From positions 1 to 33,778 of IMG/VR virus record IMGVR_UViG_3300021960_005220: DNA of 33,778 nucleotides, one strand, 5' to 3'. The stretch comes from a virus. Numbering within the stretch: position 1 is the first letter of the stretch; every line of letters starts with the position of its first letter. The translations under genes and the position numbers were made by a program. Shown here piece by piece: positions 18,137 to 33,778 of this stretch. Below the pieces are notes generated by a model that searched no databases, had not been told where the DNA came from, and saw only the letters and a list, made by a program, of their open reading frames with translations.

Positions 18137-21100
18137 TTATTTTCTTTCTTTGTAGCGGTCTGTCTCAGCCATTGTACGGGGCAACCATCGCGGGGTTTGG
18201 TACCTGCCGCCGCCCATCTCTGCCAGAACACGGTTTCTTATCCGCCCGTTAACAGAAGTCTGTATACTCTCGTAGGTTATAGGGTCGTTAGGGTTGGCCT
18301 GTGAATACGCACGGGCTTCCTGTATAGCTCTGTCGAACTCTGGGCTGTCCTGCCCGTAATCTTCGAGCGCTTTGTTTATTGCGTCCAGAGCGTCATATTT
18401 ACGGCTATTTGCTTCTTCTATAATGGTGTATACCAACTCATCGACATCGTACTTCTCTTTTACTTCTGTCGGAGTAAAGCCTAGGACTTGGGTTGCTAGC
18501 CGCCCAACAGTGTAGAACTCACGGCTCCGCACCGTATCCCCCCGACGGGTCAGGTTGCCCTCGGTTCCGTATCTATAGGCGCGTAGCGGTTGTTTAAGGG
18601 CGGAAGGCAGTATGTTTTCAAATCCTCTCAGGTATTCCCCGTCGCTAAAGTCCGAAGCAGCGGTAGTCCAATTAGCCAGCATACCCCCGAAAGGCCCAAG
18701 TGCATTTGCGTATACTAAGTTTTCCAGACCTTCTTTATCCATTGAACCTGCGTCAAACCGACCAAAGAAGATGTTATCCAGCGACACGGACGAAGAAATA
18801 TCGAGCCCTGTTATGGCCGACACAGGCCCATATAAAACCGCTCGTTCCAACAACCGACTCTGATCTTCGCCGAGACCAAAGGTTCTAGCTATGCCGCTAC
18901 CTGTACCGAAGGTTTGGGGGAGCCACTCGTTACGGAACCAAAGCTCCCAACTACGATGGTTGAGCGGGTCTCTTGGGTCGTCATCATCCTCAGTAGCAGC
19001 GCTTAGCATATCCAGCACGCCTAGGGCTACACTGAAGAGCGGCAAAGCAGTTACACCACCGAACAGCCCAGTCGTCAGCAAAACACCGGCCAGCGTACTA
19101 CGGGCGGCTCTACGTTCTTCTTTAGATAACCCAGACCGTTTTAGTTGGTTATAAAAGTTACGTGCAAGCAACGAATACATCTGTAACGGGTACGTCAAGA
19201 ATTGCGTACCCAGCTTGGCCCCTGTAGCAGTCATAAGTCTGGGCTTATTCCACTGCCTATAATCAAACAAGGACTCAAGCATTACAGATTCCGCAGTGTC
19301 TTGAGCTTGTACCTGAGCGGTATCGGCGTCCACCCCCCTGTCTATTAGACGCTTATACGCAAGTTCAAAGGCAGTCATATACGCGAGTTTTCTCGAGCTG
19401 CTTTCGGTGTACTGAAACCCGCTTCGAAGAACTTTAAGCGCAAACTGAGCGCCCCTACCTAACCGCTCGTATGAGCTAGACTCAGATGTCGTAGAGGGGG
19501 TTCGCTTCATATATGTAAGATCGGATATGTACCCCGTATCGAACGCCCCCGTATCGTCTCCTTCTTTATAAGCAGCCTCTATAGCCTTTCTAAGTTCTTT
19601 AGGCACTCTACGCAGGTGCGTCTCTAGATCGTATAGCTTCCCAGACACTCGTTTAGCCAGCAGAGCGTTAGCCTGCGCTGTAGAAATCTTAAACTCTCTA
19701 GCCAGCAAAGGGGCCGTCACAATGGGGACCTGCGTTAACTGTATCAACGCAGTCCTTGCAGAAGTTAGGAAGTAATAGAATGATGCCTGGTTCCCCCAGC
19801 GAGCGAACTTATCAAAAAACTGCTCAACACCATCTAGCTCGGCAGGACTGAAAGCTCTTTCTACCCTAGCCGCCATTTCTCCTGCGACTATGAGAAGTTT
19901 CTCCATATCCGGTGTCCCGGCATACTCCTCCCTTATCTGGTCGTACATACCCTGTATGTGACCCCTGACTTTGGACTTGTATTCAAGAGCAGCTAGATTA
20001 TTTGAGACGCTCACCTGATGAGACACAAAAGTCCTAAGCGCGTCAGTGCTATAACCCCGCACATTTTTTCTTGGCTTAAGGTGCTTTCTAAGATCACCGT
20101 CTGGTAATGTTTGTAAGTATAGCTGGAATACATCCGCCTTAAGCTCATCTATATTCGGGTTTCTACCCGAGGCGTTTAGTACCTTCATAACTTTAGCTAT
20201 AGCCGAGTTCTGATCGACTACATTGGTACCAAACAAGTCTCTCAACTGGCTGGGGTCGTCCCCTCGCCCAGTTTCTTCTAAGACTTCGTTGTTAGCTTTA
20301 GCCTCCGCTGTACGCCACTTCATAAACCTTTCGCGCTCAGCCCACGACTCAAACATACGGAACTCTAAGTCTTTCCCCTTATTGTAGCTAACCCAGTAGC
20401 GGCCAAAACGCATCAGCGGGAAATAGAACTTTAGTCTAGTTCGTTCTTTTTTAATTATTTCTAGAAACTCAGTAGCCGCCTTTATTTGCGCTTGGTCAAA
20501 CCCACCTGCTCTAAGAGTGTCTTGCATATGCTTTATACGCTTGTCGATAGCGCTATTCATTTGCTCCTTAACACTTTTGAATATAGCTAGCGCTTTTGCA
20601 TTTTTAGCTAGGTTGTCGTACTGCGCATACACACGCCGTTCGGTAGCCGTAGGGTTTACCACACGAACTTCAGGGTCGATATTATTTATGGTGGCGTCGT
20701 ATAGAAGGTCTGTTAAAGCGTCTGCATCCTTCTTAGCTGTTCTAATCAACGAAGCCCAGTCCGGACTCACGGCTGCGATTTCTTTAAGTAGCCTATTACG
20801 AGTGCTGTCCATACGCTTCATAAACGTATCAACTACCGTTATGTCTCGTAGTTTGCCTCTAAACCACCGCACTATGTCGCTTGTTGTAAGGGAGTATAGA
20901 ACTGCCCTTAGCGTAGGGGACTTCATCCCCCCTAAAATACTTTGGAAGAACGGAAGCGCCGATGCAGAGTTGCGGTATTTTCTTGTGCCTCTTCCCAGCC
21001 CCGCACCACCGGCATTTACTACCGCTTTATAATCCGTTTCTTGAGACTTTTGCGCCGCTTCATTTTTACTATCTATTTTTCTTCTAGCGTTTTTTATAGC

Positions 21101-23485
21101 GTTATTGAGTTGCTCCCTATCCATACTGTTGGCGTTTTTAATGCCTAGGTTGCTTGCTATGTTACGCGCAGCAGCTAGCTCGTTTGCAGCAGCGTCGAGT
21201 GTGGGTGGAGCTTCAGGTGTGGGTGTAGCTGCAGGTGCGGGTGTGGGTGTAGCTGCAGGTGCGGGTGTAGCTGCAGGTGTGGGTGTAGCTGCAGGGGCCG
21301 CAGGTGTAGGAGCCTCTGCAGTGGGCTTTCTTTCCGCTACTGTTTCTTCCGCCCGCCCCCGTGCTTCTAACATTTCAGCTACGGCGCTTTCCGCGTCGTA
21401 GCCACGCTCTACATATTTAGTGCGAAGTGTGGCTCTCTCTGCCGGGGTAACAGCCCGCTCTGTTTCTGGCAGCGTAGCCAGAACTTCGTCCAAGTCCCTA
21501 TCAACTTCTCCCTCTGGTATGAGCCCACGCCCCCTATCCCCCTCGGCAACCTTGAAGCTTTCGGGGTGGTACACTCCTTCTTCGACATTGAGGGACCTAT
21601 CTATAAGGTCATACATGTCATCGAGGTCGGCGTCTTCCGATAACCACCTATCATCCTTCAGTCGGCGGAGAGCATCCTCGGGAGACATACCCTTATCTGA
21701 CTTCGGTCGTAGCACACCCTGTTTCTTGGTCTTATCTTTAAGAGCCTGCAGTTCTTGGCCTTCTGGAGTAAGGCGACCTGAAGGGTCCCTAGTTATACGT
21801 ATGCCGCCCAGCGCTTTAATATACGTAGAAAACTCTTGCTCTATAGTTTGCCCGCGCACACGCGCTCTTGGTCTTGCTTGTGACGGCTGCAAGTCTAACG
21901 TAGATGGTCTGGCGGCTGCGGCTGCTGCGGCTTCCTTACGAGCTTCTAACTCTGTAACGGTTTCTCTAGCACTACGCTGGGCTTCTTCTTGAGCCATAAA
22001 GCGGTTTTGGTACGCTTCCTCAGACTCAGCTCTACCTTGGGCCTCTATGTTTGTATCTCTTAGAGTTCTGGCCTCTCTAAGAGCGGTTTCATCTTCTTCC
22101 GTCCAAGCAGCAGGTGCTTTCTTAGGTGGCGGACGCGGGCGGCCTACTGGCGGTGCATTCCCCGTAAGACCTTCGTAAAGAGCCTCCTCCGGGGAAGGGC
22201 TCGGTGCTGTTACGTCTGGTGCTCCTACGTCTGATGCTCTCGCCCCGCTCTTCCTACGTGTCAGGACAAACGCAGCAACGCCATCGGCAGTACCGTCCGC
22301 TGCAAGCAGATCAGGAGGTATGTTTCTAAATTCTGCGGGGGTAATAGGCGGTTCATTTACAGCAGCAAGGTATTCATCAACCCCTGCTACGCGCTCTCTA
22401 GCTCTCGCGCTGTCCTCTGACTCCGAAGCATATATCGTATTTGGGTCTAAGTCCCCGCTATATGTTAGCCGCCGTATTTCCTCTTGTGTCGGTTCCGGCT
22501 CTGGCTCCGGCATCGGCTCCGGTGGGGGTTCCTCTACGCGCCCCGGCCTTATAGCCCCTACACCTGCACCAATACCCGCCCCGGCAAGCCCTTCAAATGC
22601 AGCCTGCCCTGCAACACCGCGCCATGTTGGTACGTCAAAACCCTCTCTTTGAAGGGCAATATTCTGAGCGAGTTGTTCCTGCCCCGCTTGTGCTGCTTCA
22701 GGCAGCGCTTCTTCTGCAGCCCCCCGCGCAAAACGCCCCAGTAGTTTACGCGCTACGTTTTGCTCTACGGTACGAGCTAGTGCAGGCTCTATACCAAACC
22801 GACCGGCGATACCGCCAAGAAAAGCCCCACCGGCTATTAAATCTAAATTACCACCTGTATATGATTGGGCTTCTCTAGCTGCTCCCTCCGCCGCTTCTGC
22901 ATCAACGCCAGCATCTAAAAGCTCTTGTCTAACGGTGCCGTATATATCACTTTTTATGATACCAGCACCCATCCCAGCACCGATACCCGTTTGTATAGCC
23001 CGCACACCGGCAGCACCTAATTTAGCGGCTCCGCCAACGTATCCACCTGCTATTGTCGGTAGCGCTGTACCTAAAACCTGGGCTACCGTAGTGACAGGAG
23101 CTACTGTAAGTGCTTCCCATGCAGCTCGTAGCTGCGCACCAATACCTTGATCTTCTGCGGCTTGCATTATACGAGCAATTTCGGCTTCGTCTTGACGCAC
23201 CCCAGCCGACTGCAAACTAGCTAGCCATTCATCAATGTTGCCCAGACCTTGGGATACCACATTCTCAGCACCGAACACGTCTGTAAGAAACTTAGCGCCT
23301 GAAGTCGCACCTCTAGCTGCCGCTAGTGGAACATCAAACATACTCCGTTCCGGGTCTTGTTCAGCCAGTTGCTGAGTTTGTTGCCTCGCTAAAGTTTGTT
23401 CTTTAGCGACTCTGTTTATTACAGCGTCGGGGGTATCATCAGGGAACTCAAGAATGGTTCCGTCAAAGAGCTGCGCTCTTCTCAT
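18137..23485 (-). CDS. very large internal virion/ejection protein (T7 gp16-like, 1782 aa)
   Basis: This is the longest gene in the window. The N-terminus (LFDGTILEFPDDTPDAVINRVA, residues 6-27) has a short domain common to phage ejection proteins. Residues 130-180 are Gly/Ala-rich and hydrophobic and could insert into membranes. Pro/Glu-rich linkers follow, including a Pro-Ala-Thr repeat near residue 735, then a SAP-like helical segment with SNLGIKNANSMDREQL. The C-terminal half is helical, with a segment around 1355-1445 (SSSRKLAYMTAFELAYKRL) like large polyvalent protein domain LPD38, and a hydrophobic stretch near 1460-1495. It follows the lysozyme gene with an ATGA overlap, at the T7 gp16 position. 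I see no protease or RNA polymerase motifs. It probably forms the inner core that is injected with DNA. Confidence 0.75.
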   Translation of the reverse strand: MRRAQLFDGTILEFPDDTPDAVINRVAKEQTLARQQTQQLAEQDPERSMFDVPLAAARGATSGAKFLTDVFGAENVVSQGLGNIDEWLASLQSAGVRQDEAEIARIMQAAEDQGIGAQLRAAWEALTVAPVTTVAQVLGTALPTIAGGYVGGAAKLGAAGVRAIQTGIGAGMGAGIIKSDIYGTVRQELLDAGVDAEAAEGAAREAQSYTGGNLDLIAGGAFLGGIAGRFGIEPALARTVEQNVARKLLGRFARGAAEEALPEAAQAGQEQLAQNIALQREGFDVPTWRGVAGQAAFEGLAGAGIGAGVGAIRPGRVEEPPPEPMPEPEPEPTQEEIRRLTYSGDLDPNTIYASESEDSARARERVAGVDEYLAAVNEPPITPAEFRNIPPDLLAADGTADGVAAFVLTRRKSGARASDVGAPDVTAPSPSPEEALYEGLTGNAPPVGRPRPPPKKAPAAWTEEDETALREARTLRDTNIEAQGRAESEEAYQNRFMAQEEAQRSARETVTELEARKEAAAAAAARPSTLDLQPSQARPRARVRGQTIEQEFSTYIKALGGIRITRDPSGRLTPEGQELQALKDKTKKQGVLRPKSDKGMSPEDALRRLKDDRWLSEDADLDDMYDLIDRSLNVEEGVYHPESFKVAEGDRGRGLIPEGEVDRDLDEVLATLPETERAVTPAERATLRTKYVERGYDAESAVAEMLEARGRAEETVAERKPTAEAPTPAAPAATPTPAATPAPAATPTPAPAATPTPEAPPTLDAAANELAAARNIASNLGIKNANSMDREQLNNAIKNARRKIDSKNEAAQKSQETDYKAVVNAGGAGLGRGTRKYRNSASALPFFQSILGGMKSPTLRAVLYSLTTSDIVRWFRGKLRDITVVDTFMKRMDSTRNRLLKEIAAVSPDWASLIRTAKKDADALTDLLYDATINNIDPEVRVVNPTATERRVYAQYDNLAKNAKALAIFKSVKEQMNSAIDKRIKHMQDTLRAGGFDQAQIKAATEFLEIIKKERTRLKFYFPLMRFGRYWVSYNKGKDLEFRMFESWAERERFMKWRTAEAKANNEVLEETGRGDDPSQLRDLFGTNVVDQNSAIAKVMKVLNASGRNPNIDELKADVFQLYLQTLPDGDLRKHLKPRKNVRGYSTDALRTFVSHQVSVSNNLAALEYKSKVRGHIQGMYDQIREEYAGTPDMEKLLIVAGEMAARVERAFSPAELDGVEQFFDKFARWGNQASFYYFLTSARTALIQLTQVPIVTAPLLAREFKISTAQANALLAKRVSGKLYDLETHLRRVPKELRKAIEAAYKEGDDTGAFDTGYISDLTYMKRTPSTTSESSSYERLGRGAQFALKVLRSGFQYTESSSRKLAYMTAFELAYKRLIDRGVDADTAQVQAQDTAESVMLESLFDYRQWNKPRLMTATGAKLGTQFLTYPLQMYSLLARNFYNQLKRSGLSKEERRAARSTLAGVLLTTGLFGGVTALPLFSVALGVLDMLSAATEDDDDPRDPLNHRSWELWFRNEWLPQTFGTGSGIARTFGLGEDQSRLLERAVLYGPVSAITGLDISSSVSLDNIFFGRFDAGSMDKEGLENLVYANALGPFGGMLANWTTAASDFSDGEYLRGFENILPSALKQPLRAYRYGTEGNLTRRGDTVRSREFYTVGRLATQVLGFTPTEVKEKYDVDELVYTIIEEANSRKYDALDAINKALEDYGQDSPEFDRAIQEARAYSQANPNDPITYESIQTSVNGRIRNRVLAEMGGGRYQTPRWLPRTMAETDRYKERK
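21213..21290 (-). repeat. 18-bp tandem repeat coding for a Pro-Ala-Thr linker
   Basis: Four near-identical units, three of 18 bp and one of 24 bp (plus-strand core GCAGGTGYGGGTGTAGCT), encode alternating Ala-Ala-Thr-Pro residues in the middle of the 1782-residue ejection protein. The protein segment should be an extended, flexible hinge. Identity between units suggests recent slippage or recombination. Confidence 0.85.
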
Positions 23486-25620
23486 TGTATCCGATTTCCA
23501 GACCTGTCGAAGGGTATGGCACCTCCACCTGTTTCAAAGCCCGAACCATACACACTACCAACTGTTCGCCGCGCCATATCGAGAAGCTGGGAGTTCGTCA
23601 GGCCCTGTAATTCTGGGTCCTTGTTCAGAAAGTCTGCTTGCCTTGTTAGTAGGTTATTATACTCGCGGAGAATAGCGTTTTCCCGTGTTCCGGGGTTAGC
23701 AATACCCGCCGCCACCGCCACCAAATCGCCCTCACTTAAACCCTCGTACCCTGCTGTACCTTTAAGCCTGTCGGCTATACGGAGAACTGTAGGTGTCTGG
23801 GCCTCTAAGGCTTCCTCTCTATAGGCTTGAGTTGCTTCTGCTTCTCGCGAAGAGGCTATAGCTTCAGCCGCTGATGCAGCCCCAGCAGATAGTCCCGTAA
23901 ACCCTTCTTCGCCTATTTTTCTACCGACTTCCCCAAGTAGCAAAGCTTGTTCGAAATTAGATAAGCCCTTTTTAGACGCGGGCGGAGGCACTTCTGTAGC
24001 CCTTGATTCCTCTTTTGGGAGACTCATTGGAAAACCAGGAAGCCCCTCTGAATTAGTCGGCCCCATGTTGTAAGGAGCTGCTGGGGCTGTGGAAGGTAAA
24101 GAATATGTTTCTTCTATAGCCCTTACTTGCTCCTCACGCTCCTGTTTAGCAGCTAAGTCAGAAGGGCGGCGGAAATAATCAGGCATAAATATATCACTGA
24201 AAGACTGTCTAGGGAGATTTCTAAGCGCTTCTGCTTGTGCGGCTTCTGTAAACCTGCGTTCTTGCTGTCTAGCGAAACTTAGTTCCTCGCCAGTTAAATC
24301 GTATAGTGGGTCTCCAGAAGCATAAGGCTTCCACTGTGCGGCTACGTCCATAAGCGCTTCAGGAGTTCTTTCCCCTTCGTAAGCATCAAAATATGTTGGG
24401 GCGTTAACAAGCCCCTGAGCCCGCGCTCTAAAATCATGCCCTGCGTCTATAGGAGACGCTTCTCCTTGGCCGAAAGGTATGAGTTGCTCTAACGTCAGAC
24501 TAGGAGCCAACTGATCTCTAAGTCTGCTAATACTTATAGGAGGACCTCCCGTTACACCGGGGATAGGAGACATGTCCGTACCGGGCCGTTCAGGAAGTGT
24601 GGAGCCCTGATCACCAGAAATAACCATAGGAGGGCCTCCCGTTACACCGGGGGTAGGAGACATGTCCGCACCGCGCCGTTCAGGAAGTGTGGAGCCCTGA
24701 TCACCAGAAATAACCGGAGGTTGGTAGGCCCTTGCTAGGTTCGAGCGAAGGGTTGCTTCAACTTCCTTGTTGTCAGGGCGCTCATATCCGAGCGCAAATA
24801 TACCGGCAGCTTCTGCTGGCGTTTCAGTCTCTAAAAGCATATCCCAAGTTTTCTTGTATCCGCGCTCATATGGATCGTTCTGTATCTCATCCATCATAAA
24901 ATCAAGTTGTTCTGTGCGAGTAGAGTCTTGTATAGGCTTCCCAAACATTGGCTCAAACTTCGCTTGCCTGTCAGGATGGTATTGGAACAGCCCATACGCC
25001 TGTCCGCTATCTCCTACTTCTCTGGGGTTTCCTGAACTCTCCCTATGGACATTTGCTATAATCCCGATAGCAATATGCTCTGGTACATTATGTTTCTGCA
25101 TAAGGTACCTAATGTCGTCATACGCGCCATCATACAGACCGCGTGATACGGTAGCGGTGGAAGACGTTGGGCCTCCTCCTCCTGAAAACGCAACGATACC
25201 ACCCCCACGGTAAGCGTTTTCATCGAACATGTAGTCAGGTACGGAAAGTTCAGCTAACCCACCGGCTGCGGCTCTCATTACAGGTTGCGCGGTAGGTGCA
25301 GCAGGGGCCGACATCGGAGCCGCCACTGCTTGAGGGGGAGCAGCCGAAGCTACCGGCGACACTCCCTGCTGCGGAATCGCCCCAGGCATAGGGGGCATAG
25401 CTGGTGCAACAGGAGCCATAATATCCTGCGCCACGGTGGTTTGCGGAGCTTGTTCTTCCGCTGCCGCACTGCGGGCTTTATCTATTAGCATACCAGCCAT
25501 AAGCCCAACGGTTGGGTCTATAACGCCAGCCTGCACAGCCGCAGCAATGCGCTGCTTGTTGTACCCATACGACTCGGCCACCTGTGCCGGAGTGTTGAAT
25601 CCTATCAGTCCGTAACCCAT
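23482..25620 (-). CDS. virion-associated lysozyme protein (712 aa)
   Basis: Residues 160-300 match phage tail lysozymes (Phage_lysozyme2 type): EHIAIGIIANVHRESSGNP with the likely catalytic E194, AYGLFQYHPDRQ at 208-219, and WDMLLETETPAEAAGIFALGYERP. The N-terminal part is a short helical domain followed by a Pro/Ala-rich linker and the recurring phage motif LAELSVPDYMFDE with GGGIVAF. A 30-residue tandem repeat lies near residues 302-361. The C-terminal half is helical. The enzyme would cut peptidoglycan locally during DNA entry. In T7 the muralytic domain belongs to gp16; here it is in the gp15 position. AGAGG precedes the ATG, and the stop overlaps the next start (ATGA). Confidence 0.85.
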   Translation of the reverse strand: MGYGLIGFNTPAQVAESYGYNKQRIAAAVQAGVIDPTVGLMAGMLIDKARSAAAEEQAPQTTVAQDIMAPVAPAMPPMPGAIPQQGVSPVASAAPPQAVAAPMSAPAAPTAQPVMRAAAGGLAELSVPDYMFDENAYRGGGIVAFSGGGGPTSSTATVSRGLYDGAYDDIRYLMQKHNVPEHIAIGIIANVHRESSGNPREVGDSGQAYGLFQYHPDRQAKFEPMFGKPIQDSTRTEQLDFMMDEIQNDPYERGYKKTWDMLLETETPAEAAGIFALGYERPDNKEVEATLRSNLARAYQPPVISGDQGSTLPERRGADMSPTPGVTGGPPMVISGDQGSTLPERPGTDMSPIPGVTGGPPISISRLRDQLAPSLTLEQLIPFGQGEASPIDAGHDFRARAQGLVNAPTYFDAYEGERTPEALMDVAAQWKPYASGDPLYDLTGEELSFARQQERRFTEAAQAEALRNLPRQSFSDIFMPDYFRRPSDLAAKQEREEQVRAIEETYSLPSTAPAAPYNMGPTNSEGLPGFPMSLPKEESRATEVPPPASKKGLSNFEQALLLGEVGRKIGEEGFTGLSAGAASAAEAIASSREAEATQAYREEALEAQTPTVLRIADRLKGTAGYEGLSEGDLVAVAAGIANPGTRENAILREYNNLLTRQADFLNKDPELQGLTNSQLLDMARRTVGSVYGSGFETGGGAIPFDRSGNRIQ
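24536..24715 (-). repeat. 90-bp tandem duplication in the lysozyme gene
   Basis: Two adjacent 90-bp units (24536-24625 and 24626-24715) differ at only a few positions and encode a 30-residue segment containing ISGDQGSTLPER twice. The differences (for example R for P, A for T) show the copy is not brand new. It probably lengthens a linker between the lysozyme domain and the rest. Confidence 0.92.
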
Positions 25621-27154: not shown

Positions 27155-28509
27155 TTAATCAGTGCCCCCAAACCTTTATTAGGCTCGCCGCGCTTAACGG
27201 CCCTTCTTTCCCGGTGAGCCTTGTCCATAAGGTCGTACAAACGATCCGCACCGCGCCTGCGGTCACCCCCACCGATACGTGCGACTGCTTGGGGGCCAAA
27301 GATAACCTCATCGCGGGCTACCCGCGCTGCCTGTTCACCGTCAATAGTAGCAGGGATAGAGTCACTCACCCCGTCGCCACCGCCCATAACAGGCGCACCA
27401 CCAAGCCCAGCTAACCGCTCTTGACCGGCGCTGCTACTGCCGTTGCCAACCTCTGAAACGGTGCGGGCATCCAAAACAAACGACCCGTCCCGCAAGTTAA
27501 GAGGGGCCTCGGTACGCGAAACAGCTCCGCCAGCAGCAGCATAAGCAGTGGAAGAGGCGGGATAGGGCCAGTTAGTTGGAACAATCGACAGCCGCTCGAA
27601 ACCTAGACGACGCCTCCTAGCCGCCTCGGGATCAGAAGAATCGAAAGCTACAAACTTCCTTTGTGGGAGCGGGCGGTACTCAGCTATAGGGTTATAGTCG
27701 TCTTCTTCTAGGGCCTCAACAGTCTGATCTTGCTGGAGAAAAGGAAGTGCTAGCCCACCAAGACCGGCGTATCCACGCAAGCCAAGACCGCTCAGTCCAG
27801 CCTCACGCCCCAACGCCGATGTAGTCGCTTCTGCAACCGTAGGTTGCGCCCCAAACATAGACCTACTTGTGGCTTCACCAAAGCTCTGAAGGAACGAAGG
27901 AGATTCCGGTAAAATACTGGAATTAACCGCCCCTGTCCCACTTGCTGCTAGTTCTCCGGGGAGCGCAATATCCGAAGCAATTTGAGCTGAGCCCACCGCA
28001 TAGGGGCTAGCAGCCGTTCCCGCCGTTCCCGCCACAGATGTCGATGCTCCTGGTACCGCAGCCGTTCCCGCCGTTCCCGCCACAGATGTCGATGCTCCTG
28101 GTACCGCAGCCGGAGTACCGCCCCCAAACATACTCCCTAAGAAGCCCTGTCCAGTCCCAGCTCCCAGAGCCGTACCCAGCGAAGCACCGCCGAAAGCTCC
28201 AAGTCCAGCCATAAGGCCCTTTTCCAGACTGCCCGTGGCAATCCCGGTTCCGCCACCAACTAGGGCTGCACTCATAAGGGGGGTTAACGCACCTCCAGAA
28301 ATAAAACTAAGCCCCACACCCAGAAGGGTGGGCAAAATCTTGCTCAGAAACCCAGCTTCAGGAAGGCCAGTCACTGGGTTAATGGTCAAAGAACCACCAT
28401 GGGCCAGAGCCAGAGCTTGCAGGCCCCCCACCTCTTTCGGGGTCATATGGACAAGGATGGAGTCCTCTCCCCGCCCTTGGGCCTGTATTTGTCTAGCTAA
28501 CTCTTGCAT
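27151..28509 (-). CDS. structural/internal virion protein with hydrophobic segments (452 aa)
   Basis: The N-terminus (RGEDSILVHMTPKEVGGLQ and NPVTGLPEAGFLSKILPTLLG) resembles a protein frequent in marine podoviruses, by memory. Residues 54-125 are Gly/Ala-rich and hydrophobic, in two stretches that could cross or sit in a membrane. A 16-residue perfect tandem repeat lies near 135-166, followed by a low-complexity region, then a structured C-terminal part with LNLRDGSFVLDARTVSEVGNG and RRRGADRLYDLMDKAH. This resembles an ejected virion protein that disrupts or enters the host envelope. AGAGG precedes the ATG. It is the first gene of the gp13-16-like block. Confidence 0.65.
   Translation of the reverse strand: MQELARQIQAQGRGEDSILVHMTPKEVGGLQALALAHGGSLTINPVTGLPEAGFLSKILPTLLGVGLSFISGGALTPLMSAALVGGGTGIATGSLEKGLMAGLGAFGGASLGTALGAGTGQGFLGSMFGGGTPAAVPGASTSVAGTAGTAAVPGASTSVAGTAGTAASPYAVGSAQIASDIALPGELAASGTGAVNSSILPESPSFLQSFGEATSRSMFGAQPTVAEATTSALGREAGLSGLGLRGYAGLGGLALPFLQQDQTVEALEEDDYNPIAEYRPLPQRKFVAFDSSDPEAARRRRLGFERLSIVPTNWPYPASSTAYAAAGGAVSRTEAPLNLRDGSFVLDARTVSEVGNGSSSAGQERLAGLGGAPVMGGGDGVSDSIPATIDGEQAARVARDEVIFGPQAVARIGGGDRRRGADRLYDLMDKAHRERRAVKRGEPNKGLGALIK
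28013..28108 (-). repeat. perfect 48-bp tandem duplication
   Basis: Units 28013-28060 and 28061-28108 are identical over all 48 bases and encode AVPGASTSVAGTAGTA twice in the 452-residue virion protein. Zero divergence, including at third codon positions, points to a very recent duplication. Confidence 0.95.
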
Positions 28510-28521
28510 AGCAAAACCTCT

Positions 28522-29469
28522 TTATGGGGTAGAAATGGTAACAGTGCCCACACTACCAATCCCTATAACGGGCAATGGTGCAACGTAAGTAACAGGGGGG
28601 TGCGCTGCGGATACGAATGATACAGTAAGAATAATAGAAGGGGTAGAGGGGATGTCAGGGGTAACGCCCGCAGAATATGTAGCTGCTGGAATGGTTTGGA
28701 TGGTAACCCCGGTATCTGAGGGCCGCCACATAATCTCCACATAGTCGCCTGCGGCTAGGTCTATTAGAAAAGGGGTGACGGCTATGAGAGAGCTGGGGTC
28801 CCCAGAGCTTTTCCGTGCAGGTAGGCCAAACTGGCTATTGGAGGCGCTGACATCAGTGCCATTCTTACGAAACCATATATCCACAGACTGGGTATCGTTT
28901 GTGGAGTTCTGAAACTGAATACTGAATTCAAACCTATAGATACCGCCCGCAGATACATAAATCCTAGACGCAGGGCTCCCTATGTATATTCCATTGGGAA
29001 AATTGTCAGTGTCATAGGTAACGGCGGTAGCTACGTCTATGGCTGAAGCAGTCTGGTCGTTAAAATCGGTAATAAGATTGTACGGGGTCACTATGTATGT
29101 CCCGCTGCCATAAAACTCGTCTGCGTATACGTCGGAGGCCATAAGTGTTTGGGTTAACATGTTATGGTTGTGGAACGACTCCGCGTCTAAATATCTAGAA
29201 TATTGACGGGCTATAAAGGCTTCCGAAGCACTAATATTGGTTGCGTTTACAGCCACTGCCGTAACTGTACCGCTTGCCGTTACATTGGAACCAGTAAACG
29301 CCCCGCCATAGAAATTGTCTGCCCTATAAGACTGCGCTTGATTAGGGGTTAAAGAGTCAAGTTGAGAAAAATACAGTTCTACGGCACGGACAAGCTGGCT
29401 AAAGAACTCCGGACGGTAAACATCTGGAGCTTGTGGTAGGGGCGGGGCCTTAAATTTCTCTAACGCCAT
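28522..29469 (-). CDS. virion structural protein with jelly-roll-like C-terminus (315 aa)
   Basis: Residues 1-45 are a short helical segment (EKFKAPPLPQAPDVYRPEFF, then LYFSQLDSL) that resembles the attachment end of tail proteins. Residues 50-130 are Ala/Ser/Thr-rich repeats (GSNVTASGTVTAVAVNAT), followed by a beta domain with NLITDFNDQTASAID, GIYRFEFSIQFQNS and VDIWFRKNGTDVSASNSQFG. That pattern is common in C1q/TNF-like jelly-roll domains of phage structural proteins. The last part is a Pro-rich beta tail. The ATG overlaps the stop of the hub gene by one base (TAATG). It could be a tail appendage or head-decoration protein. The function is inferred from fold-like features only. Confidence 0.6.
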   Translation of the reverse strand: MALEKFKAPPLPQAPDVYRPEFFSQLVRAVELYFSQLDSLTPNQAQSYRADNFYGGAFTGSNVTASGTVTAVAVNATNISASEAFIARQYSRYLDAESFHNHNMLTQTLMASDVYADEFYGSGTYIVTPYNLITDFNDQTASAIDVATAVTYDTDNFPNGIYIGSPASRIYVSAGGIYRFEFSIQFQNSTNDTQSVDIWFRKNGTDVSASNSQFGLPARKSSGDPSSLIAVTPFLIDLAAGDYVEIMWRPSDTGVTIQTIPAATYSAGVTPDIPSTPSIILTVSFVSAAHPPVTYVAPLPVIGIGSVGTVTISTP

Positions 29470-31412: not shown

Positions 31413-31988
31413 TTATGTCCATTCAAATCTAACAGTTCCGTCACCACCGTTACCGCCTGTAGATGTAGTGCCGCTTCCGCCGTTCCCGCCGTAAGTCCCA
31501 GCCCCACTTGGAGCGCTACCCGTCAAGTTAGAGACGTTACCCCCGGTAGCACCCCCACCAGAACCGTTAGTTCCAGGGGAGCCAGATTCACCCCCGCCTC
31601 CCCCAGTGCCGCCGTTACCTGTCATTGTGGATACAGACGTAACCAGTGTACCTTGGGTTACCGAACTATCCGTACCGTCACCACCATCACTAATTGGAGC
31701 GCCACCAGCCCCACCACTACCTACAGTATAAGTAAGAGCTTTGCTCCAATCTCCGGGGGCTATGGAGTAAGTGCTTTTAGCCTCCCCACCCCCTCCTCCA
31801 AAGCCTCCGCTCCCCCCCGTCTCACCACCACCCCCGCCACCACCTGCGCCACCAACGTAAATAGTGACTGAAGAAGCACCTATGGGGACAGTCTCATTAC
31901 CAGAGCCAGAAGTGTAGGTATTGGTAACGGGGGTAAAATCTATACCACCGCCGAGAGCCATGTAGTAAGCGTCGAGCGCACCAGCCAT
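31413..31988 (-). CDS. glycine-rich tail-tip or adhesin-like protein (191 aa)
   Basis: After a short N-terminal anchor (AGALDAYYMALGGGIDFTPV) and a beta strand region (NETVPIGASSVTIYV), most of the protein is Gly-rich, with blocks such as GGAGGGGGGGETGGSGG and GGNGGTGGGGG-like runs, then a final strand TVRFEWT. Such polyglycine regions form polyglycine-II sandwiches in adhesins at the tips of some long tail fibres (phage S16 gp38 type), where exposed loops bind the receptor. Here it directly follows the fibre gene, with start and stop overlapping (TAATG). Receptor binding is an inference from composition and position. Glycine-rich proteins of other roles also exist. Confidence 0.6.
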   Translation of the reverse strand: MAGALDAYYMALGGGIDFTPVTNTYTSGSGNETVPIGASSVTIYVGGAGGGGGGGETGGSGGFGGGGGEAKSTYSIAPGDWSKALTYTVGSGGAGGAPISDGGDGTDSSVTQGTLVTSVSTMTGNGGTGGGGGESGSPGTNGSGGGATGGNVSNLTGSAPSGAGTYGGNGGSGTTSTGGNGGDGTVRFEWT

Positions 31989-33214
31989 TAGCTAATGTCC
32001 GTTCCAACTAGCCGCCAAACGGTAGAGGAAAGTTTTTTAATGGCTACACTTCCATTGGTCCCGATAGTGCGACTACCTGTTAAGGTGGTCCATTTCAAGG
32101 TATCTGTAGTAATCGAAAGGGTTATGTTTCCACTCCCACCATTATCTATACAGATAATAGTCCCAACTGGGAAAGCTACGCTGGAGTTGGCAGGTATTGT
32201 AAAAGTCGATGTCGTCCCAGTGAAATAAATAGTCTTCCCCGCGTCCGTCATTACAAGGCCATAAGACGCCCCGCTCTGAGAATTAACCGGAGTTCCGAGA
32301 TAACCAACTGACGTTGTGGCAGGCGTAGCTGCCGGGGTCAAATTCGCACCGGCAGAAACAGTAGCCAGAGCAGAAAATGTTTGTGGGCCAGACCAAGTAT
32401 TAACTCCGTCTAGAAACCCAAGAACAGTCCCGCTTGTTCCTGTTGGGACGCCGAGGTTTGTACGTGCGTCAGAAGCACTCGTAGCCCCCGTGCCGCCGTT
32501 AGCTACAACTAAAGTGCCTGCTATCGTTACGGTACCTGAAGTTGTGACAGGACCCCCGCTGGTTGTAAGGCCGGTAGTCCCTCCATTAACATCAACGCTA
32601 GTAACAGTACCCCCGCTGCCCGTAGCGCTAACCGTAATAGCTCCGCCGCCATTAGTGATTGTGATCCCCGAACCAGCCGTAAGCGTGGCTTTGTCGAGCG
32701 TATTACCCGAAGAGTTACCAATGAGGAGTTGACCGTCGGTGTAAGATGTCTGCCCCGTACCACCTGAAGCAACCGGAAGGGCAGCGCCAAGGGTTAACGA
32801 AGACAGATGCGTTACAGCATCAACAATAGCATTGCTACCAGTGCTAAAGACCCAATTAGTTTTGCCCGCTGGTATAGAGACGTTACTGCCCGCGCCCGTT
32901 CCGCTTTTAACCGTAATAGTCCCGTCGGTGCCGTTATTTATAATGTAGGCTTTTTCGATATTCGGGACTGTTAAATCGTAACCTGCTGTGGCCGTACCCG
33001 TAAGGTTAAGCCGCATATTCCTAGCGGTCTGACTAGCGTTTGTGTCTGTCAACGTAAGCGTAACATTGGCGCTGGAAAACGCTACATCCGCCGAACCAGC
33101 TATAGCTTCTTCGACGGCGGTTCCTAAGTTGGTGTTAGTTATGGTCCCCCATGTGCCGCTGTTTTCCCCCGTAGCCATAAGCTGGATTTTTAGGTTGCTG
33201 TAGGTGCTAGCCAT
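31988..33214 (-). CDS. tail fibre protein (408 aa)
   Basis: This protein is a phage tail-fibre type sequence. The N-terminus (YSNLKIQLMATGENSGTWG, residues 5-23) matches the virion-binding start of many short-tailed phage fibres. Repeats VASGGTGQTS (148-157) and VVANGGTGATS (236-246), followed by RTNLGV, are the classical collar motifs of triple-helical fibres. The rest is Gly/Ser/Thr/Val-rich beta structure, with a C-terminal domain holding SYGLVMTDAGKTIYFTG and WRLVGTDI. No enzyme motif (lyase or hydrolase) is seen, so it likely recognises the host directly or carries the glycine-rich protein encoded next. GAGGAC precedes the ATG. Confidence 0.85.
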   Translation of the reverse strand: MASTYSNLKIQLMATGENSGTWGTITNTNLGTAVEEAIAGSADVAFSSANVTLTLTDTNASQTARNMRLNLTGTATAGYDLTVPNIEKAYIINNGTDGTITVKSGTGAGSNVSIPAGKTNWVFSTGSNAIVDAVTHLSSLTLGAALPVASGGTGQTSYTDGQLLIGNSSGNTLDKATLTAGSGITITNGGGAITVSATGSGGTVTSVDVNGGTTGLTTSGGPVTTSGTVTIAGTLVVANGGTGATSASDARTNLGVPTGTSGTVLGFLDGVNTWSGPQTFSALATVSAGANLTPAATPATTSVGYLGTPVNSQSGASYGLVMTDAGKTIYFTGTTSTFTIPANSSVAFPVGTIICIDNGGSGNITLSITTDTLKWTTLTGSRTIGTNGSVAIKKLSSTVWRLVGTDIS

Positions 33215-33223
33215 GTTGTCCTC

Positions 33224-33778
33224 TTAATTCGGTATGTCTGTCCAAGTGACTGAGTTTGTTGTGTTTACTGCGGTCCAGGTAACCGAATTGCTGTCATTGA
33301 CCCCTGTCCAGTTAGGTGTCTGCCCTGTAGGTATAATACTCCAAATTAGTACTCCAGATACATAGCCTATTGCTGACACCCCTGTAACCGTAACGACTGT
33401 CTGTGTGTCTACACTTACAGAGCCAGTTTGACCCGTTCCGGCTACCCCCGAAACAACTACAGATTTGGGCAAACTAACCGTTACTGAGCCGACTTCCCCT
33501 GTGCCAGCTTCTCCAGTTACGCTTACATTTGCGGTAGTCTGGACTGTTACTGAGCCGACTTCCCCTGAGCCAGCAACTCCAGTTACGTTTACGCTTACAC
33601 TTGTAGGGACCTGGACCGTTACTGAGCCGACTTCCCCTGTGCCAGCAACTCCAGTTACGCTTACATTTGCGGTAGTCTGGACTGTTACTGAGCCGACTTC
33701 CCCTGAGCCAGCAACTCCAGTTACGCTTACATTTGCGGTAGTCTGGACTGTTACTGAGCCGACTTCCCCTGAGCCAGC
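33224..33778 (-). CDS. 3' part of a repeat-containing virion protein (partial)
   Basis: An open frame runs on the minus strand from the window edge to the stop at 33224-33226, giving 184 residues without the N-terminus. An internal ATG at 33472 is not the true start, because the frame and repeats continue upstream of it. Six repeats of 22 residues (one of 24) follow the pattern AGSGEVGSVTVQTTANVSVT and should form stacked beta strands. The C-terminal part (GVLIWSIIPTG) ends in three short W-T motifs (PNWTGV, VTWTAV, VTWTDI), a pattern often found at the ends of phage structural proteins. It could be a tail or capsid surface protein; the missing 5' part would decide. The tail-fibre gene follows 9 nt after its stop. 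Confidence 0.7.
   Translation of the reverse strand, partial: AGSGEVGSVTVQTTANVSVTGVAGSGEVGSVTVQTTANVSVTGVAGTGEVGSVTVQVPTSVSVNVTGVAGSGEVGSVTVQTTANVSVTGEAGTGEVGSVTVSLPKSVVVSGVAGTGQTGSVSVDTQTVVTVTGVSAIGYVSGVLIWSIIPTGQTPNWTGVNDSNSVTWTAVNTTNSVTWTDIPN
33377..33778 (-). repeat. 66-bp tandem repeats at the right edge
   Basis: Units run from the window edge to 33377: 33713-33778 and 33647-33712 (identical, 66 bp), 33575-33646 (72 bp with a 6-bp insertion), 33509-33574 (two bases different from the first two), and two more diverged units at 33443-33508 and 33377-33442. Divergence grows toward the 3' end of the gene. The array may continue beyond the window. Confidence 0.95.

Follow-up and report, generated by a model that had tools for sequence, protein, structure and literature searches.

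The window, by which we mean the whole of IMG/VR virus record IMGVR_UViG_3300021960_005220 (33,778 bases, classed as linear), ends inside an open reading frame (ORF) that carries a tandem repeat array:

33377..33778, minus strand: tandem array of six consecutive in-frame units, of which five measure 66 bp and one 72 bp
33713-33778 (66 bp), 33647-33712 (66 bp), 33575-33646 (72 bp), 33509-33574 (66 bp), 33443-33508 (66 bp), 33377-33442 (66 bp): the array units in gene order
33224..33778, minus strand: array ORF, 184 amino acids, its 5' end open at the window edge and its start codon beyond the window
33227..33382, minus strand: C-terminal region of the array ORF, a half unit (SAIGYVSGVLIW) followed by three 11-residue repeats

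The 66-bp array is beyond chance (TRF score 467), and TRF and the reading frame both confirm the repeats that an initial annotation had described in this gene. Each unit encodes 22 or 24 amino acids (for example, AGSGEVGSVTVQTTANVSVTGV); in the 72-bp unit, an extra 6 bp gives VSVNVTG instead of VSVTG. The tandem 22-residue units share a GxGxVGxVxV core, a trait of the family of proteins resembling WJZ48131.1 of Phage DSL-LC04, and the half unit is followed by C-terminal 11-residue repeats that each bear Trp (QTPNWTGVND..., three here) and align with those of relatives. The array ORF matched 0 Pfam and 0 PHROG families, and a PDB sequence search returned no match. The array is a real feature of an ordinary kind, a tandem repeat of variable length in what is probably the fibre gene of a phage; the protein family that carries it is unnamed, and the window edge had been over-read.

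A second record, IMGVR_UViG_3300021961_000002 (60,295 bp), contains the window at 522-34299, in two pieces and at an identity that rounds to 100%, and on this match we take it to be the same phage, of which the window is a fragment. It allowed the gene to be extended to its start, as the initial annotation had proposed: the ATG lies at L010:4108 in the 60-kb record, at least 697 amino acids before the record's end, and these residues form a glycine-rich stretch ahead of the array, with one stray unit (AGTGEVGSATV) between two glycine-rich parts. This upstream region matched no Pfam or PHROG family. The array gene is preceded by late genes, among them an endolysin gene, and followed by a tail-fibre-like gene:

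L010:3316-3771: endolysin gene upstream of the array gene (phrog_7)
31988..33214, minus strand: next gene downstream, 408 amino acids, PHROG tail fiber protein phrog_31660 (E 2.1e-14)

Position beside a tail-fibre-like gene is what makes the initial reading of a virion or surface protein plausible; the family searches lend it nothing further. The terminases that come nearest to that of this phage, among the matches listed, belong to Phage DSL-LC04 (56.1%) and to the Pelagibacter phages HTVC027P (55.7%) and HTVC023P (52.8%). Phages of the HTVC023P type are described as podoviruses in a passage of PMC9599517, and the phage studied here is an uncultured phage of aquatic origin that is probably short-tailed.

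The window holds other features of note. A 90-bp direct tandem duplication, its copies 95% alike, lies at 24536-24715 in an ORF that matches a tail tape measure PHROG, and a 1,782-residue ORF at 18137-23485 (minus strand) matches the PHROG 'DarB-like antirestriction' (E 9.4e-57). At 28010-28112, a 48-bp tandem repeat with 100% identical copies lies in a 452-residue ORF; the 60-kb record has a different base from the window there, at 28108, and the alignment of a close relative (L285) is lost at 28136, so that this is possibly another length-variable repeat.

A protein search with the window ORF found 27 loci, two of which are the 60-kb record, and a marine member of the family used as query found 226 relatives in IMG/VR, of which 80 were kept for analysis. 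The set comprised 103 ORFs, 102 from contig loci and one from DSL-LC04; 100 were complete, and 75 remained after removal of near-duplicates. An upstream flank identity of at least 92% defined 27 close pairs in 14 groups; ORF length was equal in 16 of these pairs and unequal in 11. By alignment, the number of units in the array was constant in 12 of the 14 groups and differed in two, so the comparison of relatives that the initial annotation had called for yields change in a minority of groups and constancy in the rest. The arrays of L003, L004 and L005 have 8, 8 and 6 units, respectively (terminal half unit counted), a two-unit difference between L005 and the other two despite upstream flanks that are 99.2-99.5% identical, and L168 has three units more than L158 (one plus two). 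These relatives thus differ by whole units, as variable-number tandem repeats do.

The remaining groups show other changes or none. The C-terminal 11-residue repeat (Trp or Tyr) likewise changes by whole units between close relatives, and one or two such repeats account for the length change in L125/L128, L131/L148 and L135/L144. Two differences were not of unit size, namely 2 amino acids at the C-terminus in L007/L009 and a stop within the ORF in L153/L164, where L164 (4001-4687) has an apparent premature stop in the array ORF although each flank equals that of L153. The other seven groups showed no difference. ORF length had served as a proxy for array change at an earlier stage, when 5 of 14 groups looked changed; alignment moved three of these to the C-terminal 11-residue repeats, and a Fisher test (3/3 versus 1/11, p 0.011) and a Mann-Whitney test based on the mistaken length classes are superseded. 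Changes in unit number fall among the three most homogenised groups (2/3 versus 0/11, p 0.033), a value to be read with the cut-off having been chosen after the fact and with unit identity and recent duplication not being independent. Among named isolates, the array was found at the DNA level in none of the phage records searched and at the protein level in one of 50,697; the unit DNA pattern occurred among viral contigs only in the 60-kb record and in none of the genome contigs. A 5,033-bp contig of the close relative L285 (99.0% over 3,434 bp) ends before the array.

How much of this can be read from the window itself depends on how the window ends. The initial annotation had called the array actively changing, pointing to two identical units at the window edge and to increasing divergence away from them. 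The two edge units are indeed identical in the window, with a 72-bp exact run at lag 66. Only two assemblies of this phage were found, however, and each breaks in the array, giving three contig ends in the array gene from two records: the 60-kb record both starts and ends inside it, with ends that overlap exactly by 82 bp, and its array comprises 15 full units and a half unit if that overlap is a true closure. The 60-kb record contains a 117-bp exact run at lag 72 and therefore 189 bp of exact tandem sequence, which would be hard for short reads. Over the 6,500 nt adjoining the array, the window and the 60-kb record show two mismatches (33772 and 28108), each within a tandem repeat, and the first affects the edge pair:

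33772..33772, no strand: disagreement between the window and the 60-kb record in the outermost unit, a single base located 7 nt inside the contig end

Owing to this base, the outermost unit has S in the window and T in the 60-kb record, and the perfect identity of the edge pair thus depends on one base at a contig end. Because the outermost unit lies at an assembly break and contains a disagreeing base, the edge units are untrustworthy and the window cannot show active change; the assembly break that the initial annotation had itself named as a possible flaw is real for that unit. The one-ended gradient did not survive either. The 14 complete units of the 60-kb record differ from their consensus by 2, 1, 2, 4, 4, 9, 8, 1, 3, 0, 1, 9, 3 and 21, with no trend along the array (Spearman rho 0.25, p 0.39; rho falls to 0.06 once the last unit is dropped), a mosaic in which near-identical units recur apart and diverged PTS-type units are interspersed. 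Divergence is clear only in the last units at the gene 3' end, which as terminal units would usually lie beyond overwriting by exchange.

These observations lead us to give about even weight to the explanation that the edge identity and the apparent gradient arose from a contig ending in a repeat too long for the reads, in which case the true array may be stable. Against a purely artefactual origin, the 60-kb record agrees with the window on five of its six units and on unit order, and complete arrays inside other contigs differ by whole units. The 60-kb array also has the highest unit homogeneity of the 104 examined (identity 0.97 over 198 bp at the best lag), and on that ground we predict that it is unstable; the window fragment alone reaches a unit identity of 0.763 because its 72-bp unit breaks the register.

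Insight into the mode of change comes from the relatives. L003 and L004 are equal in length, have upstream flanks 99.1% identical and show 52 mismatches in total, which are concentrated in the interior units (25/330) relative to the terminal units (0/198) and the rest (27/3009; Fisher p 3e-13). At the interior mismatches, all 25 L004 bases are present at the corresponding position of another unit of L003, compared with a mean of 16.0 in a codon-phase-shifted control. A first version of this sister-base test had applied a one-sided null to a two-sided count and gave very small p-values; the codon-phase-shifted control removed most of them, and the one-way counts for L003/L004 and L131/L134 stand. 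Because only L131/L134 is clear of the control among the other 12 pairs (61 versus 40.7 of 92), we propose exchange within an array for homogenised arrays only. In many of the pairs, divergence is higher in the array than in the upstream flank, and such differences could instead stem from recombination with the arrays of other phages, a form of module swapping. That explanation suits L131/L134 (array 92/528, upstream flank 24/1000) and L179/L184 (105/924 and 3/1000), both equal in unit number, and it suits flanks of unequal identity on the two sides, as in L003 versus L120 (72% upstream, 97% downstream). It fits poorly with L003/L004, where every derived base occurs in a sister unit and the terminal units are identical, and with the changes among L003, L004 and L005, which are consistent with the gain or loss of existing units; overall, we hold it to be possible but rather unlikely. 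Far less probable still is on/off phase variation or rewriting by a diversity-generating retroelement, whose one point in favour is the analogy that the initial annotation drew from repeats lying in a surface-type protein. Every unit of the window or the 60-kb record measures 66 or 72 bp; each length is divisible by three and keeps the frame, so the units do not work as an on/off switch. A search of the 60-kb phage record for the PF00078 reverse transcriptase gave no match, and a control search was positive in 3 of 14 genomes. Of the unequal exchange first suggested, whole-unit change in relatives and interior turnover with fixed terminal units remain, and the one-ended gradient is gone. Whole-unit exchange does occur in this protein family, apparently within homogenised arrays such as that of the window, and without hypervariability.

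Structure prediction offers a view of what such units might build. The AlphaFold model of the window ORF has two strands per unit, at a mean pLDDT of 59.9 (76-80 in the first 40 residues), and that of the marine member L003 has a mean pLDDT of 50.0. A Foldseek search of the PDB with the array protein model gave no match at E <= 0.001 (E >= 0.58, the matches being solenoid-like and non-significant), and a VIA-align comparison of the low-confidence model placed beta-helices first, led by a family 3 pectate lyase (Z 11.1, 141 residues, rmsd 3.1). Structure predictors may favour solenoids for near-perfect repeats. A beta-solenoid-like rod is, on these models, a likely but unproven fold for the array protein.

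The explanation that we favour, and consider probable as a whole, is a fibre shaft of beta-solenoid-like coils that undergoes whole-unit exchange and stepwise drift in length. A fibre-like virion protein would have the array as its repetitive shaft, in which each 22-residue unit contributes two beta strands and one coil of the rod; glycine-rich domains would flank the rod on its N-terminal side and a short end rich in Trp on its C-terminal side. Homologous exchange, be it slippage, conversion or unequal recombination, may keep the units alike, acting on interior units and leaving terminal units to diverge. Occasional gain or loss of whole units would change the length of the rod stepwise with the frame intact, with whatever effect on adsorption this could have. 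What look like the newest units, at the edge of the window, would mark the point where short-read assembly stopped.

Half units also occur at the ends of two other proteins:

L010:884-1237: zinc-ribbon-like protein upstream, 117 amino acids, with CxxC pairs, ending in LVATGQVGTVTVTTS
28522..29469, minus strand: 315-residue protein ending in a half unit, GIGSVGTVTISTP-COOH

The 117-residue protein, encoded at most seven ORFs upstream of the array gene, is a putative zinc ribbon by our reading of its CxxC pairs, with no family match. Among its relatives (loci L071 and L205-L283), the locus includes a stop in 78 of 80, and of these 78 complete relatives 69 carry a half unit within 30 residues of the C-terminus (51 of the 59 distinct tails), compared with 1/78 elsewhere in the protein and 3/1,560 in shuffled tails; at 19 of the 78 loci there is also an ORF of at least three units, and many loci are too short to tell. 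A profile search showed no relation between the 315-residue protein and the array protein. In the 18 of 80 loci inspected, four full-length relatives end alike by eye (three distinct tails), 12 partial relatives have no such end, and one further locus is the 60-kb record itself. In the remaining locus, the L285 copy of this protein (2101) has an apparent premature stop at codon 4, after three codons. Across 9,374 ORFs, a half-motif scan gave 237 matches versus 165 in a reversed-sequence control, and an internal stretch of the neighbouring tail-fibre-like protein scored 23.8, above the 22.4 of the 315-residue protein's tail; score alone is weakly specific, and the claim of half-unit tails rests on C-terminal position and conservation rather than on motif score. 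A speculative and rather improbable idea is that the half unit is a docking code, whereby tails would add a strand to the end or side of the rod and tie several virion proteins to a shaft whose unit number can drift; copy number would then set both fibre length and the number of docking edges.

If the favoured explanation of a length-drifting shaft is true, aquatic phages share a widespread, unnamed repeat protein whose length shifts in steps of whole coils; short-read virus catalogues would then systematically truncate or collapse its more homogenised arrays and under-record the diversity of fibre lengths. It would also call for caution with records labelled 'complete', as closure by a short overlap within a repeat may be an array artefact.

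We found no description of the 22-residue repeat family in the open-licence PMC literature. In metagenome-assembled Phage DSL-LC04 (OR003939), whose terminase is closest among the matches listed, along with those of HTVC pelagiphages, one of the nearest known proteins, WJZ48131.1 ('hypothetical protein'), is 47% identical to the window ORF over 180 residues and has the same repeats and a Trp-rich C-terminus, followed by fibre-like genes; unlike those of the window phage, its units are diverged (best lag identity 0.59) and its N-terminal part is WG-rich rather than glycine-rich. The word 'repeat' is absent from the available portion of the main text of the DSL-LC04 paper (PMC10611076). In the viral structure library, the only matches at E <= 0.001 were the predicted models BFVD A0A6J5P871 and A0A6J5QA73 from uncultured Caudovirales phages (identity 30% and 42%, rmsd 15.5 and 10.3), one of which is named a glycine-rich domain-containing protein. 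Pelagibacter phage HTVC027P gp68 (QGZ17849.1, hypothetical), which directly precedes the 'putative tail protein' gp69, has a WG-rich N-terminus and similar repeats and aligns with the family profile at 95.6% hhalign probability over 92 columns; its units, unlike those of the window array, are strongly diverged, and as a single, compositionally simple sequence it is likely but not certain to be homologous. A parallel in behaviour comes from E. coli O157 prophages, in which, according to a passage of PMC3368898, the length of a collagen-like side tail fibre varies by whole repeat units among related phages; those fibres are built of Gly-X-Y collagen triplets, in contrast to the 22-residue beta units of the window, and we claim no sequence relation between the two.
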